DNA of 8,792 bases, taken from Lachnospiraceae bacterium (GTDB taxonomy: Bacteria; Bacillota_A; Clostridia; Lachnospirales; Lachnospiraceae). Below the pieces are notes generated by a model that saw nothing but the letters and a program-made list of their open reading frames with translations, had not been told where the DNA came from and made no database searches. Location of the stretch: NCBI GenBank assembly GCA_017958245.1, contig JAGDDC010000046.1, positions 1 to 8,792 on the forward strand, given 5' to 3'. Both the position numbers and the translations under genes were made by a program. Positions 559 through 8,331 of this stretch are shown one piece after another. Each line of letters starts with the position of its first letter. Position 1 is the stretch's first letter.

Positions 559-1572
559 CTACAGGAACATCTTCTTTGGCTTGTATGACTTGAATCGCCT
601 GCTGTATACATAGGTCGCCATGAACTCGCCGTGGCTGTCGTAGACCAGTATACCCTCGCGGCTGCGCTCGCTCTCGAGCCTTTCAAAGTCATCCGTCCCC
701 ACCATGTTGCCGCTTAGGAGGAATCTGTCGGCGCTCTCTTTTAAGTACCCTCTGCCGTAGCCCTCGAGACAGCTGTCGGTAGGAACTATCAGACTCTCGA
801 GCCTGCCTGCTTTTGCTATCTCCTCGACCTCTGCAAGTGTGTGAGCCTCACCGATCGAGAACCTTCCGACCTGCAGCCTTTTAAGTTCTCCGACGCATGC
901 ACCGCATCCGAGCTTCTTTCCTATGTCGTTGCAGAGAGTCCTGATATATGTGCCCTTCGAGCAGTCGACACTCATCACGGCTTCGACATGACCGTCAGAC
1001 TCTGTAACGGACTCGACATCGATACGGTCGATATCGACCCATCTGGTCTCGCGCTCTATCTCCACGCCCTGTCTTGCAAGCTCGTAGAGGCGTTTTCCGC
1101 CGATCCTCACGGCCGAGTACATCGGTGGTTCCTGGTCGTACCCGCCCACAAAGCTTAAAGCTGCCTCTGTGATATCAGACTCTTTGAGCGAAATGACATT
1201 CCCTGTGGGACACCCTTCCCTCAAATGACCTCCCTCACTGCAGGCATCGTTCTTTGAGCAAGACAGCCCGTCGTGTGCCTCAAGACAGGTCCCTACATCG
1301 GTCAGCACAGTCCCCGTCATATCCTGGGAATCCGTCGTCACGCCGAGGATCATCCGTACCCTGTAACACTTTTTCTTGTCTATCAGGAGGTCGTTTAACT
1401 TCGTGGCGTTTCCGAGTCCCACGGGAAGCACGCCCGTAGCCTCGGGGTCTAAAGTGCCCGTGTGTCCGATCTTTCTCTGGCCGGTTATCCCGCGAAGCCT
1501 CGCCACCACGTCATGCGAGGTATAGCCTTTGTCTTTGTCGATCACGAGGATCCCGTTGTACTTTTCCCGCAT
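559..1572 (-). CDS. truB: tRNA pseudouridine(55) synthase TruB with a Cys-rich insertion
   Basis: TruB converts U55 in the T-loop of tRNAs to pseudouridine. The 337-residue product opens with NGILVIDKDKGYTSHDVV, and the catalytic aspartate is D42 in GHTGTLDPEATGVLPV. Other family motifs are YRVRMILGVTTDSQD (70-84), EPPMYSAVRIGGKRLYELAR (148-167), and the late GTYIRTLCNDIGKKLG segment; the C-terminus resembles the small PUA-like tail of Firmicute TruB. It is somewhat longer than I expect for the family, mainly because of an insertion at about residues 93-127 with four cysteines (C96, C105, C111, C121) and two histidines (H100, H116). The ATG at 1572 lies 24 bases after nrnA with no clear Shine-Dalgarno, so it may depend on translation of nrnA. 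It ends in TAG, with an in-frame TGA two codons later. Confidence 0.96.
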   Translation of the reverse strand: MREKYNGILVIDKDKGYTSHDVVARLRGITGQRKIGHTGTLDPEATGVLPVGLGNATKLNDLLIDKKKCYRVRMILGVTTDSQDMTGTVLTDVGTCLEAHDGLSCSKNDACSEGGHLREGCPTGNVISLKESDITEAALSFVGGYDQEPPMYSAVRIGGKRLYELARQGVEIERETRWVDIDRIDVESVTESDGHVEAVMSVDCSKGTYIRTLCNDIGKKLGCGACVGELKRLQVGRFSIGEAHTLAEVEEIAKAGRLESLIVPTDSCLEGYGRGYLKESADRFLLSGNMVGTDDFERLESERSREGILVYDSHGEFMATYVYSRRFKSYKPKKMFL

Positions 1573-2624: not shown

Positions 2625-3098
2625 CTACTCTTCGTCAAGAGAATCCAACTCTTCGTCCAAATCCTCAAGTTCCTCATCCAGAGCGTCCATACCCTCGTCC
2701 GAATAGCCCGGCTCGGCATCGCCGCGGTCTATAGCCGCCTGCCTGTCGATCTTTGCGACATCGTCGATGCGCTTCGACATCTTGACGCCGTATTCTATCG
2801 ACTGGTCATCCAAAAAGATGAGTTCGGGTGTGTTCCGAAGGTTGAGTGTCTTTGCGAGCTGTCCGCGCAGGAAAGGCGCAGCGGAATTGAGCCCTATGAG
2901 TGTTCCCTGTCTGTCCCTGTCGTCGCCGAGGACGCTCACATAGACCTTTGCGGTCTTCAAGTCGGGAGTTACGTTCACCGACACGACCGAGGTCATGGGG
3001 TGGATCCTGGGGTCTTTGAGCTCCATCGCGATCAGGACGGACAGTTCTCTCTGAACTTCCTGGTTGATCCTTATGTTTTTGATACTGTTCTTTCTCAT
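2625..3098 (-). CDS. rbfA: 30S ribosome-binding factor RbfA with acidic C-terminal extension
   Basis: RbfA is a single KH-fold protein that binds the maturing 30S subunit and assists late 16S rRNA 5'-end processing. The N-terminal part is typical: [20 protein letters not shown] (10-29), DPRI at 29-32, [19 protein letters not shown], and the late [21 protein letters not shown] strand-helix region. At 157 residues it is longer than the roughly 115-135 usual for the family; the extra length is an acidic tail from about residue 125, ending in an LDEELxx heptad-like run. The ATG at 3098 overlaps the infB TGA as ATGA, and a strong GGAGGAGG lies seven bases upstream inside the last codons of infB, so the two genes are probably translationally coupled. 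It stops with TAG; the next in-frame stop is 12 codons further on. Confidence 0.95.
2628..2681 (-). repeat. Heptad-like acidic repeat in the RbfA tail
   Basis: Residues 140-157 of RbfA read [18 protein letters not shown]: a seven-residue (21-base) repeat with leucines at 140, 147 and 154, plus 144 and 151. Nearly every other residue is Asp or Glu. The pattern could form a short amphipathic helix with a leucine stripe. The underlying DNA units are related but diverged. Confidence 0.7.
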
Positions 3099-6000
3099 CT
3101 GGGAACCTCCTCCATCACGTAGAACTCGATCTGGTCAAGCTCCATGAGATCGTTGAACTTCTCGAATACGAGACCGCACTCGTATCCCTTGTCAACTTCC
3201 TTCACGTCATCCTTGAAACGCTTGAGCGAAGCGAGAGGACCTTCGTAGATCTGCTCTCCCTCCCTCGTGATCCTCGCGCTGCATCCGCGCTGGATCTTTC
3301 CGTCGAGCACGTACGAACCGGCGATCACGCCGAGTCCGGAGGCCTTGAATGTCTGGCGCACCTCCGCGTGTCCGATGACCTTCTCGCGGAAGATAGGCTT
3401 GAGCATGCCCTTCATGGCGTTCTCAACGTCCTCTATAGCGTTGTAGATGACCTTGTATGTCTTGATCTCGACATTCTCTCTCTCGGCGGTATCCTTTGCG
3501 GTGTTGTCGGGCTTCACGTTGAAGCCTATGATGATCGCGTTGGAAGCACTTGCGAGGTTGATGTCGGACTCGTTGATCGCGCCGACTCCGCCGTGGATCA
3601 CGCGGACTACGACCTCCTCGTTGCTGAGCTTCTCAAGACTCTGGCGCACGGCCTCAACCGAACCCTGTACGTCCGCCTTGATGATGATGTTCAGCTCCTT
3701 GATGTTTCCTGCCTGGATCTGCGAGAACAGACCATCGAGAGACAGTCTCTTCTTGGTCTCCGCAAGGAGGTTCTCCTTGCTCTGCGAGATGAAGGCCTCT
3801 GCTATGGTCCTTGCCTCCTTCTCGTCCTTTACAGCCATAACGACCTCACCTGCGTTGGGAACTCCGTTGAGTCCAAGGATTTCTACAGGTGTAGACGGTG
3901 TGGCCTTCTTCACGGGCTTTCCGTTGTGATCCATCATAGCGCGGACCTTGCCGTGTGTCGCTCCGATGGCAACGTTGTCGCCCACCTCGAGTGTACCCTT
4001 CTGAACAAGGATGGTTGCAACGGGGCCCTTGCCCTTGTCAAGCTCTGCCTCGATGACTATACCGCGGGCTTTTCTGTTGGGGTTAGCCTTGAGCTCGCAT
4101 ACATCTGCGGTGAGGAGGATCATTTCGAGAAGATTCTCGATGCCCTCGCCGGTCTTTGCGGATACGGGACAGAACACCGTCTCGCCGCCCCACTCCTCGG
4201 CCGTGAGTCCGTGCTCGGTGAGCTCCTGCTTTACACGCTCAACGTTCGCGCCGGGCTTGTCGATCTTGTTGACCGCAACTATGATCTGGACGTTCGCCGC
4301 CTTCGCGTGGTTTATGGCCTCAACCGTCTGAGGCATGACGCCGTCGTCGGCAGCGACTACCAGGATCGCGATATCTGTAGACTTCGCGCCGCGCATACGC
4401 ATGGACGTGAAAGCCTCGTGTCCGGGCGTATCGAGGAAGGTGATCTTCCTGCCGTTCACCTCGACAACATAAGCACCGATGTGCTGCGTTATGCCGCCCG
4501 CCTCCTTGTCGGTCACGTTGGTCTCCCTGATGCGGTCAAGAAGCGATGTCTTGCCGTGGTCTACGTGACCCATTACACAAACTACGGGAGGGCGTTTCAC
4601 CATGAGGCTCTCGTCCTCTTCTTCTTCCTTCAAAAGTTCTTCCACTACGTTTACCTTTACCTCGTGCTCCGCAATACAGTTGTACTCGAGAGCAAGTTCT
4701 TCAGCTTCCTCAAAAGATATCTCAGAGTTGATCATGACTATCTTGCCTGCCAGGAAAAGCTTCTTGATGATAGCACCGGTAGGCTGCTTAAGCTTGTCGG
4801 CAAGCTCCTTGATGGTGACGGGATCCGGAAGAGTGATCGTCTTGATCTCCGTGGGATCCTCCGCCTTCTTGGGTGCGACCTCGGGCTTTATGAAAGCTCC
4901 CTTCCTGTTGGGATCCTTCTTGGGCTTCGCCTGATTCTGGTTGAATCCGTCCTCGTAGTCTCCTCTGCGCTTCTTGTCTCTGTCCTTGTTGCCCTTCTTG
5001 CTGTTGTATGCGTTGTCGCGCCTTGTCTTGTCGGTATCGTTCGACATCTCGGGCTTCGCGCCGGGCTTGGGACCTCTGCTGTCGCGCCTGTCGTTCTTGC
5101 CTGCTCCGTTCCTGTCATTTGAGAAGCCTGAGCCGTAACCGCCCGGTCTTCCGGGACCCGACTGACCATAGCTGCCTCTTCGCTGATCTGAAGGGCCTCT
5201 TCCGCCGTAAGGTCTGTCGCCGGATCTTTGGTCCGAACCTGCGGGCCTCTGTCCGTTCTGGTACGGAGGTCTGCCCTGTCTGTCGCCGAAAGGCTTTCTT
5301 ATATCGCCTCTCTGTCCCTGGTCGGGCCTTGTCTGTCCCCTGTCCTGTGAAGGATGCGCCCCGTCTCTTCCTGTGGGCGCCTTCTGAGGCTGGCGCTCAG
5401 TCTTTTCTTCGGGCTTTTGCGCGGGCTCTCTTGCGGGTCTTTCAGATCCCGCATCAGCTGCGGGTGCTGCAGTGTCCCTTGTCTTGTCCTCCGAAGGACG
5501 TTTCGGAGCCTGTCCTCCGGGGCCTACCGGAAGCGGTTTCCCGTCTATCCAAAGGTATGTCTGCCTGAGGGGCTTTCCATCGGGACCCAAAGGTCTTCCG
5601 TCGGGACCCATCTGAAGCGGCTTGCCGTCGGGAGCCACGGGCTTCCCGTCGGGACCTGTCTTCAAGGGACTTCCGTCGGGCCATACAAGTACTCTTCTCA
5701 AAGGCTTTCCGTCAGGTCCGAGTGCTCTCTGCCTGAGGGGCTTGCCGTCGGGTCCCAAAGGTCTTCCGTCAGGTCCTGTCTTCACAGGCTTGCCGTCAGG
5801 TCCTGCCTGAAGAGGTCTGCCGTCGGTCCACAGAAAAGCAAGCTTCAGAGGCTTGCCGTCGGGTCCTACGGGCCCGGGTCTTCTGACAGGTTTCCCCTCC
5901 GCTCCCGCGGGCGCCTGCTTTCCCTTGTCCTCTGCGGGGCGCTTCGCTGTCTTTGACTCGGGAGCTTCCTCTTTCTTCTCCTCAGCCTTATCCTCAGCCT

Positions 6001-6121
6001 TCGCAGCCGTCTTCTTCGCTGCGGGCTTTGTCTCCGTCTTTGCGGCGGGCTTTTTGGCGGAACTCTTTCCAAGGAAATGATCCCTAACCTCGCCTGCGTC
6101 CTCATCCTCAAGGGTACTCAT
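3095..6121 (-). CDS. infB: Translation initiation factor IF-2 (main frame, lacking the first IF2_N domain)
   Basis: IF-2 is the GTPase that brings fMet-tRNA to the 30S subunit and promotes 50S joining. Numbered from the ATG at 6121 (1008 residues): a Lys/Ala/Glu-rich stretch to about 80; a DG[KRS]P[LV] repeat region at 86-197; a Gly/Arg/Gln/Pro-rich, probably disordered region at about 265-415; a second IF2_N domain at about 420-485; then the GTPase with G1 GHVDHGKT (518-525), G2 GGITQHIG (542-549), G3 DTPGH (564-568), G4 NKID (618-621) and G5 SAK (654-656), followed by domains II, III and the fMet-tRNA-binding domain IV. The catalytic part looks intact. This is not the ancestral start: the same frame continues upstream through a TAG at 6145-6143 to a better ATG at 6241, where the first IF2_N domain begins; with the TAG read as sense the protein would be 1048 residues. 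The ribosome site for 6121 is weak, so expression may depend on reinitiation or readthrough. It overlaps rbfA by four bases. Confidence 0.95.
5531..5866 (-). repeat. GPDGKPL-type repeat region in IF-2
   Basis: Residues 86-197 of IF-2 contain twelve DG[KRS]P[LV] units, with aspartates at 88, 100, 109, 118, 125, 137, 149, 158, 165, 174, 181 and 193, spaced by 7, 9 or 12 residues. A higher-order block, GPDGKPL followed by five or so residues, Trp, one residue and DGxPL, occurs three times (86-104, 135-153, 179-197; Trp at 98, 147, 191). Codons vary between units, mainly at third positions, so the peptide pattern appears to be kept while the DNA drifts. No function is known to me for such repeats in IF-2. 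Confidence 0.88.
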
Positions 6122-6142
6122 GTGGCTCTTGTACTCTTTCCC

Positions 6143-6241
6143 CTACTCCGCGAGAAACGCTATGATATCTTTGCTCTTTAGTTCCGTTCCCTTTGCTTCG
6201 CTTATCTCTTTCGCGAGCTCATGGATTTTCAATTTGGCCAT
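6143..6241 (-). CDS. infB: 5' part of infB: first IF2_N domain, ended by an in-frame amber codon
   Basis: This frame encodes 32 residues, beginning MAKLKIHELAKEI and ending DIIAFLAE before TAG at 6145-6143. It is the classic start of Firmicute IF-2 (MAKxRVxELAKEL, then a KELI-FL helix). After the TAG the same frame continues GKEYKSH into the MSTLEDED at 6121, which is also the usual continuation of this domain, so a single codon is changed; CAG or AAG (Gln or Lys) to TAG is the simplest history. The ATG at 6241 has GGAGAG eight bases upstream, much better than the site before 6121. The piece is either translated as a 32-residue leader followed by reinitiation, read through to give full IF-2, or reflects a sequence error. 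It could equally be called a disrupted 5' end of infB. Confidence 0.82.
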   Translation of the reverse strand: MAKLKIHELAKEISEAKGTELKSKDIIAFLAE

Positions 6242-6272
6242 TTACACATCTCTCCAATCTGTTACCTTAAAC
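6242..6272 (-). promoter_or_regulatory. ylxQ-infB spacer with Shine-Dalgarno for the upstream infB start
   Basis: On the minus strand the 31 bases after the ylxQ TAG contain GGAGAG eight bases before the ATG at 6241. This decides that the original infB start is 6241 rather than 6121. No promoter or terminator is seen. An in-frame TAA follows the ylxQ TAG after one codon. Confidence 0.7.
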
Positions 6273-6629
6273 CTACAACGACTCTAAATACTTTATGATC
6301 TGCGCCGCCATGCCCTGATCATTCACGGCAAGCGATGCGCGGAATTCTTTTCCCATCGAATGACCGAGCGTATCCTTGTCTGAGAAGGAAAAGCAAGGCA
6401 CCCCGTAGTAGTCGCACATATCCTTGAACTTCTTTTTCGTGTTGTCCGAGGCGTCTCCCGCGACTATCACAAGCCGCGCCTTCCCGTCCTTTACGGACTT
6501 TTCGGTCAGGAACTCTCCGCTTGCGGCAAACCCTGCCTTCGTGCTGAGTCCGAGCAGCGAGAGAACCTTCTTTGAGATTTCTTCCGGGGGACGCTTAAAG
6601 CTTCCGTCATCCTTTTTCAAATGCCTCAT
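6273..6629 (-). CDS. ylxQ: L7Ae/L30e-family RNA-binding protein YlxQ
   Basis: A small protein of the L7Ae/L30e fold; Bacillus YlxQ is known to bind kink-turn RNA, but its cellular role is not settled. In the 118-residue product the family features are LLGLSTKAGFAASGE (25-39), LVIVAGDASDNTKKKF (53-68), the Cys/Tyr-Gly-Val-Pro segment CDYYGVPCFSF, LGHSMGKE and the terminal VNDQGMAAQIIKYL. It is slightly longer than Bacillus YlxQ through a charged N-terminal extension of about 20 residues. The start is uncertain: the ATG at 6629 lies directly against AAGGGGG, too close for a normal ribosome site, while a TTG at 6620 has that site at nine bases. Either choice overlaps the end of rnpM, which implies coupled translation. 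It ends in TAG. Confidence 0.88.
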   Translation of the reverse strand: MRHLKKDDGSFKRPPEEISKKVLSLLGLSTKAGFAASGEFLTEKSVKDGKARLVIVAGDASDNTKKKFKDMCDYYGVPCFSFSDKDTLGHSMGKEFRASLAVNDQGMAAQIIKYLESL

Positions 6630-6879
6630 CCCCCTTCAGCTTTTCATATATCTCCTTCGGGATCGTCATCTTGAAGGATCTCTCAAGGCCTTTGTTCTTC
6701 GCCGCTAGTTCAAGACAAGCCCTGTCGCGGCATATATAAGCGCCTCTTCCGTTCTTCTTTCCGGTTAAGTCGGTCTCAAACTCTCCCTCGGTCGTCCTTA
6801 CGATCCTCAACATCTCTTTCTTGGGTCGCATCTCACCGCATCCGGTGCACTTCCTGAGCGGTATCTTTCGCGTATTCAT
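6607..6879 (-). CDS. rnpM: RNase P modulator RnpM (YlxR family)
   Basis: A YlxR-family protein; the Bacillus member has been described as an RNA-binding modulator of RNase P and renamed RnpM. Family marks are the N-terminal RKIPLRKCTGCGEMRPKKEM with the C-x-x-C pair, LRIVRTTEG, and GRGAYICRDRACLELA containing the second cysteine pair. The 90-residue length is normal. The start is taken as the ATG at 6879, with AAAGGG ten bases upstream; a GTG three codons earlier at 6888 would be only about three bases from that site. It follows nusA by about 48 bases and its last codons overlap ylxQ. It ends in TGA. Confidence 0.92.
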   Translation of the reverse strand: MNTRKIPLRKCTGCGEMRPKKEMLRIVRTTEGEFETDLTGKKNGRGAYICRDRACLELAAKNKGLERSFKMTIPKEIYEKLKGDEAFEKG

Positions 6880-6927: not shown

Positions 6928-8331
6928 TCACTCCTTGGTCTTCTTTGACCTGGTCTTCTTCGCGGGCTTCTCTTCGGGCACTTCCTCAGCAGGCTCCTGA
7001 TCCTGAGCCTCTGCGTCATAGTACTCGTCCTGAGCGTCGGGGTCGTAGTAGTCGCCCTGATCGTCAGGATCATAGTAGTCGCCCTGCGCATCGGGATCGT
7101 AGTAGTCGCCCTGAGCGTCGGGATCGTAATAGTCGCCCTGCGCATCGGGATCGTAGTAATCGCCCTGTGCGTCGGGATCGTAGTAGTCACCCTGGTAGTT
7201 CGCGTCGTAGTACTCACCCTCGTAGCCTTCTGTGGTCTGAGCTGCGGGCTCGATGTACTCGCCTGCGGCCTCAGCCTGCGATTCGCTCTTTATGTCGATC
7301 TTGTAGCCTGTGAGTCTGGCCGCAAGTCTTGCGTTCTGTCCTTCCTTGCCTATAGCCAGCGAGAGCTGATAGTCGGGAACTATGACTCTCGCGCTCTTGT
7401 CCTCCACGGATACCCTCACGGATACCACCTTGGCAGGGCTTAAAGCGTTCTCTATGAGGATCTCGGGGTCGTCGCTCCAGTTGATGATATCGATCTTCTC
7501 ATCATTCAGCTCGCCGACGATCGCATTGACCCTCGCTCCGTTGAGACCAACGCATGCGCCGACCGCGTCGACGTTGGGGTCGTTGGAGTATACGGCCATC
7601 TTTGTCCTGGCACCCGCCTCACGCGCGATGCTCTTGATCTCCACAATGCCGTCCTTGACCTCTGTAACTTCCTCCTCAAAGAGTCTCTTCACGAGATCCT
7701 TGTGAGTCCTTGAGACTGTGATCTTCGGTCCTTTGGGCGTATCCTTTACCTCGAGGACATAAACCCTGATCCTCTGTGTGGGAGTGAAATGCTCGCTCTT
7801 TATCTGCTCGTTCTCTGTGAGGACAGCATCGCATTTGCCAAGATTGATGCTCACGTTGTTGCCGACATAGCGCTGAACGATGCCTGTCACAACTTCGTGT
7901 TCTCTGCCGAGATAGTGGTTGTAGAGGACTTTCCTCTCCTCTTCCCTGATCTTCTGTACAACGACCTGCTTTGCCTTCTGAGCCGCGATACGTCCGAAGT
8001 TCCTGGGTGTTACCTCGAGTCTTACGACGTCTCCTACGGAGAACTTCTTTCTGGGATGCTTTGCATGAGCCTCGGCAAGTGTCATCTCAAGCGCGGAGTC
8101 CGAAACCGTCTCCACTATGGTCTTGTCCGCGAACACGCCTACCGCTCCCGTCTCCCTGTTGATGCTCACAACGATGTTGTCGGACTTTCCGAACTCATTC
8201 TTGCAGGCAGCAAGCAGCGAGTTTTCGATCTCCTCAAGGAGTATCTCCTTGCTTATGTCCTTCTCCTTCTCGATCTGATCCAACGCTTCGATCAGTTCTC
8301 TGTTGTTGGATGCTTCCTGTTTCGTAGCCAT
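6928..8331 (-). CDS. nusA: Transcription termination/antitermination factor NusA with a repeat tail
   Basis: NusA binds RNA polymerase and nascent RNA, and governs pausing and termination. In the 467-residue product the N-terminal polymerase-binding domain covers about 1-130 (EALDQIEKEKDISKEILLEE near 15-34), S1 about 145-210, KH1 about 228-300 with GLNGARV at 262-268, and KH2 about 302-350 with IGKEGQNARLAARLTG at 327-342. As in other Firmicutes there are no C-terminal AR repeats. In their place is an acidic tail: eight nine-residue YYDPDAQGD-type repeats at 374-445, then EPAEEVPEE and a Lys/Arg-rich end. The ATG at 8331 is certain: AAGGAGGG lies nine bases upstream. It follows rimP by 24 bases and ends in TGA. 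Confidence 0.97.
   Translation of the reverse strand: MATKQEASNNRELIEALDQIEKEKDISKEILLEEIENSLLAACKNEFGKSDNIVVSINRETGAVGVFADKTIVETVSDSALEMTLAEAHAKHPRKKFSVGDVVRLEVTPRNFGRIAAQKAKQVVVQKIREEERKVLYNHYLGREHEVVTGIVQRYVGNNVSINLGKCDAVLTENEQIKSEHFTPTQRIRVYVLEVKDTPKGPKITVSRTHKDLVKRLFEEEVTEVKDGIVEIKSIAREAGARTKMAVYSNDPNVDAVGACVGLNGARVNAIVGELNDEKIDIINWSDDPEILIENALSPAKVVSVRVSVEDKSARVIVPDYQLSLAIGKEGQNARLAARLTGYKIDIKSESQAEAAGEYIEPAAQTTEGYEGEYYDANYQGDYYDPDAQGDYYDPDAQGDYYDPDAQGDYYDPDAQGDYYDPDDQGDYYDPDAQDEYYDAEAQDQEPAEEVPEEKPAKKTRSKKTKE
6997..7212 (-). repeat. Eight tandem 27-bp units encoding YYDPDAQGD in the NusA tail
   Basis: The tract has a strict 27-base period. Units in protein order are YYDANYQGD, four YYDPDAQGD, YYDPDDQGD, YYDPDAQDE and YYDAEAQDQ (residues 374-445). 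The central units differ almost only at synonymous positions (for example GCG/TCG-type third-base changes in the plus-strand reading), so they are not a recent exact duplication. The period is a multiple of three, so gain or loss of a unit would keep the frame. Confidence 0.93.

Follow-up and report, generated by a model that had tools for sequence, protein, structure and literature searches.

An in-frame TAG within the N1 domain of a Lachnospiraceae infB gene, very probably an isolated nonsense change

Translation initiation factor IF-2 of E. coli occurs as alpha, beta and gamma forms that arise from alternative in-frame starts of infB, and its Domain I, which includes the N1 domain, binds NusA (PMC12297416). 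As described in the same source, E. coli without Domain I grows, its growth being slowed by 18% in LB and by 15% in M9 with glucose. The disordered N-terminal region of IF2 (Domains I-III) has been described as non-essential, although growth at 15 C requires it (PMC11838494). In-frame stops are widespread in bacterial genes and many of them are thought to be short-lived, with pyrrolysine and suppression among the possible causes (PMC7918605); in the parts of it drawn upon here, PMC8629427 names no bacterial UAG reassignment. A cell could survive a nonsense change in the N1 domain of IF-2, and such a change would be of particular interest if it were real and read through, as an essential translation factor would then carry a natural stop, and the amount of its full-length form would depend on UAG decoding.

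The stretch of DNA analyzed here (the window) comprises positions 1 to 8,792 of contig JAGDDC010000046.1 of an uncultured Lachnospiraceae bacterium. By NCBIfam matches it carries an operon in the order rimP, nusA, ylxR (rnpM), ylxQ, infB, rbfA, nrnA, truB and ribF, of which nusA, rnpM, infB, rbfA and truB passed the curated cut-off, whereas rimP and ribF (both cut by the window end), ylxQ and nrnA fell short of it. The gene of interest, infB (3095..6241, minus strand), opens at the ATG 6241-6239 and remains open to the TGA 3097-3095 (1048 codons with the TAG counted), except for one TAG at codon 33 (6143..6145, minus strand), exactly as the first-pass annotation had described it. The reading frame is identical on either side of this TAG, so that a single substitution suffices as an explanation. 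The TAG falls within the N1 domain, the first IF2_N (residues 1-60; 6062..6241, minus strand), and the residues flanking it indeed join into an IF-2 N-terminal domain: when the TAG was entered as X, two IF2_N stretches were recovered (79.9 bits), as opposed to a single one (47.5 bits) when the protein was started at the ATG 6121, and residues 1-54 align across the stop site to the solved IF-2 structure 4b3x (E 3e-4). The gene is otherwise an ordinary bacterial IF-2, in which IF2_N, the G domain, domain II and the IF-2 domain follow one another in this order, and the frame from ATG 6121 scores 818.6 bits against TIGR00487, the cut-off being 424.4. In a public set of approximately 5.8 billion proteins, the product has been predicted from ATG 6121 (P0001), and this entry consists of one member sequence from one contig.

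The locus resembles each of the known systems in part. It is like the E. coli isoforms in that a shorter IF-2 without N1 is functional there; however, the internal starts described in PMC12297416 operate in a gene that no stop interrupts, whereas the TAG here would force an internal start, and the ATG 6121 is neither provided with a good ribosome site nor conserved as a start. It is like the short-lived stops of PMC7918605 in being a single nonsense codon in a constrained gene, unshared by the relatives examined, although the cases described there rest on several related genomes and ours on one contig with no close genome. Lastly, it has in common with pyrrolysine and suppressor-tRNA systems an in-frame UAG in a conserved protein, but differs from them in that UAG also ends three genes near the window infB.

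The nearest relative found was a protein, P0002, which was by far the best match to the window IF-2 (78% identical over the full length; 1739 bits, the next match scoring 1169), and was the sole sequence retrieved when infB residues 1-60 alone were used as query. Its residue at the stop site is Val. Leaving aside the window's own protein, 119 homologues were listed, and in the 111 of them whose N1 start could be read, the column of codon 33 contained N in 69, K in 21, F in 13, A in 4, Y in 3 and V in 1; since predicted proteins end at stops, this count documents tolerance only, and searches of DNA weigh more. In the N1 search of the DNA of 397 family genomes, 300 were matched at E <= 0.1 and 97 were without a match, and no stop was seen inside N1 among the 150 matches listed. 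The site codon was then read in the DNA of 49 distinct loci, mostly picked by N1 similarity, and was a sense codon in all 49. The first-pass annotation had asked whether relatives carry TAG or a codon such as CAG or AAG at this position; AAG was in fact the commonest (16 loci), followed by AAA (13), and TAG occurred in none. In 20 of the 49 loci the site codon is one substitution away from TAG, so codon 33 is a variable position, easily made a stop by a single substitution.

A stop kept in related genes, as expected of read-through or recoding, was thus not found, with P0002 at 78% identity as the closest relative examined; given that distance, a stop common to the species or to a young clade would escape detection. 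Closer sequences were sought by other routes. Among the 120 homologues listed, the ten that bear an organism name all belong to Lachnospiraceae. Using YlxQ as a probe, 10 loci of 39-66% identity were found in genome contigs, and among 392 genomes drawn at order level, of which 175 gave a match, the best identity was 67-68%, so that no genus-level relative was found in either collection. A protein search with the first 350 infB residues, aimed at truncated contigs from the same species and limited to 7997 candidates, was uninformative: its 20 matches were drawn by the low-complexity repeats, with no IF-2 domain among the matches listed. When viral contigs were scanned for the sequence pattern with any codon allowed at the site, there were 0 matches.

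Comparison with P0002 also bears on the age of the stop. Identity was 27/32 before the stop and 20/27 over residues 34-60, as against 202/354 aligned residues in the linker, while from residue 431 onward it rose to 599/618. On either side of the stop, N1 has therefore changed less than the linker, and so the stop would appear to be of recent origin, unless it is read through or is not real; a long-standing arrangement of leader plus restart would have let N1 drift.

We consider it very probable that a recent and isolated single-base nonsense change, either a strain mutation or a wrong base in the contig, accounts for the TAG of this otherwise ordinary infB, and that the stop is neither programmed nor recoded. 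Since the relatives examined lack the stop, it is most likely the result of a misread base or of a one-off mutation, rather than of a new mode of decoding. Of the readings offered by the first-pass annotation, this one is best supported, considering that the stop was in no relative examined, that it comes from a single contig, and that the domain is otherwise well kept. A real mutation and a base error are held to be about equally likely. The frames of the window's other genes are open, so that the contig is unlikely to be of poor quality throughout. The ATG 6121 pairs with the ribosome only at background level (see below), so a real stop should cost the cell much IF-2. It is to be noted that assemblies do contain infB genes with broken frames. 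Among 50 loci with both N1 and the C part of infB, these two parts lay in different frames in three (L049, L051 and L052), which had been picked for their short frames; their breaks lie in the repetitive linker, are frame breaks and not N1 nonsense codons, and represent either frameshift errors or real breaks. No rate for N1 nonsense codons is derivable from them. In another locus (L055) infB stops at codon 324, its C part lying outside the stretch examined.

If the stop is real, ribosomes starting at 6241 would halt after 32 codons, and working IF-2 would most likely be made from the ATG 6121 (codon 41; 6119..6121, minus strand), either by reinitiation 21 bases past the TAG, a spacing that was confirmed, or by weak direct initiation. 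The product, of 1008 residues against 1048 for the frame read through the TAG, would be without N1 only, and would retain all other parts, including the G domain and the second IF2_N. The two starts are indeed as unequal as had been claimed. The Shine-Dalgarno segment of ATG 6241 (CAGATTGGAGA; 6251..6261, minus strand) forms a duplex of -9.4 kcal/mol at a spacing of 9, whereas that of ATG 6121 reaches -5.5, which is the background level for sampled window positions on the same strand (mean -5.0, 10th percentile -8.95); the ATG 6121 is therefore not an internal start that has a ribosome site to itself. None of the other in-frame infB starts at codons 42-532 scored better than -6.1, and no promoter-like sites were found at 5900-6700. 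Met 41 itself was present in 10 of 111 homologous proteins and in 36 of the 49 loci in relatives' DNA, these having been picked mostly by N1 similarity, and the pairing upstream of it in those 36 loci had a median of -2.8, compared to -10.9 at the gene starts, with 4 of the 36 scoring -10 or better. Considering this poor pairing, Met 41 in the relatives examined would mostly be a residue rather than a start. The proposal of an IF-2 lacking N1 and made from 6121 thus stands as plausible if the base is real, but it finds no good ribosome site behind it and a Met that serves as a residue in the relatives examined.

Among the alternatives to an isolated nonsense change, the one that survives best, although we regard it as unlikely, is that UAG specifies an amino acid in this organism, inserted by a suppressor tRNA or as pyrrolysine, and that the full-length 1048-residue IF-2 results. 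The conservation of N1 on either side of the stop and the tolerance of the site for many residues would both agree with it. Its further extension, to which we attach a still smaller chance, is that the amount of full-length IF-2, and hence of the N-terminal link that binds NusA in E. coli, hinges on the efficiency of UAG reading, so that the level of decoding would tune a core initiation factor. Stop-codon usage in the operon argues against reassignment of UAG. Three of the eight genes that end within the window, namely ylxQ (L7Ae-like; 6273..6629), rbfA (2625..3098) and truB (559..1572), all on the minus strand, end in TAG and the other five in TGA; UAG is therefore in use as a terminator here. 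This argument is softened by further stops nearby, since a ribosome reading through these TAGs would meet the next stop after 1 further codon in ylxQ (a TAA two codons on), 2 in truB and 12 in rbfA, which is a mild cost. The window's other genes showed no further TAG within their frames, and no tRNA was found in the window. The stop was absent from the 49 loci and from the 150 listed N1 matches, as already described, and these include the one genome that bears PylS (G057).

Pyrrolysine decoding may exist near the lineage, as PylS exceeded the curated cut-off in one of the 299 genomes of the related family draw (TIGR02367, 297.5 bits against 178). Weaker matches below the cut-off were found in 278 of these 299 genomes and likewise in 13 of 14 control genomes, one of which was over the cut-off; we have taken the weak matches for other, putative, aminoacyl-tRNA synthetases. 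The PylS-bearing genome is from the Lachnospiraceae-type family draw, with the gene at L069:1369-2235 (G057:C7:41952-42674), and an open reading frame beside it (246-1070 of L069) is a putative PylD by eye; the 3.7 kb of L069 around this PylS yielded no tRNA. To our knowledge, infB is not a pyrrolysine protein.

Nor does the RNA around the TAG offer the stimulating structure expected of read-through or recoding. The first-pass annotation had drawn a six-pair stem (6157-6152 with 6142-6137) that would hold the TAG in its loop. Such a stem can be drawn by eye if one G-T pair is allowed; however, it is absent from the minimum-free-energy fold, where 6157-6152 has other partners. Shuffled versions of the region are in general more stable (186 of 200 are at least as stable as the native sequence; z +1.57), and we give the stem no weight. 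There was no match in Rfam at gathering scores. Overall, UAG as an amino acid has gained no positive support from the window, where three further operon genes terminate with TAG and neither a shared stop nor a structure accompanies the codon, and as the evidence stands, a single contig cannot support a claim of UAG decoding.

A programmed arrangement, in which termination of a 32-codon leader sets the frequency of restart at 6121 and hence a controlled ratio of IF-2 forms, is in our estimate very improbable. It would draw on the good ribosome site at 6241, on the closeness of the ATG to the stop, and on the precedent of E. coli IF2 forms made from internal starts (PMC12297416), but the stop occurs in no relative examined, the common Met 41 is mostly poorly paired, as detailed above, and the segment is conserved as a protein domain and not as a free leader. 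The least probable of all is that the window infB is a decaying copy, its stop rendered harmless by an intact second infB elsewhere in the genome, considering that the gene sits in the full rimP-to-ribF order and that its near-identity to P0002 from residue 431 on gives no sign of decay.

Besides the stop, several other features of the window were observed. The IF-2 linker contains many GPDGKPL/GPDGRPL repeats (approximately 5530-5880, minus strand), which are partly common to P0002. At the C-terminal end of NusA (approximately 6990-7220, minus strand), about six tandem acidic repeats of the QGDYYDPDA type are followed by a charged tail. In TruB, the TIGR00431 match falls into two stretches, with an apparent insertion of tens of residues between approximately residues 85 and 130 (approximately 1180-1320 of the window, minus strand).
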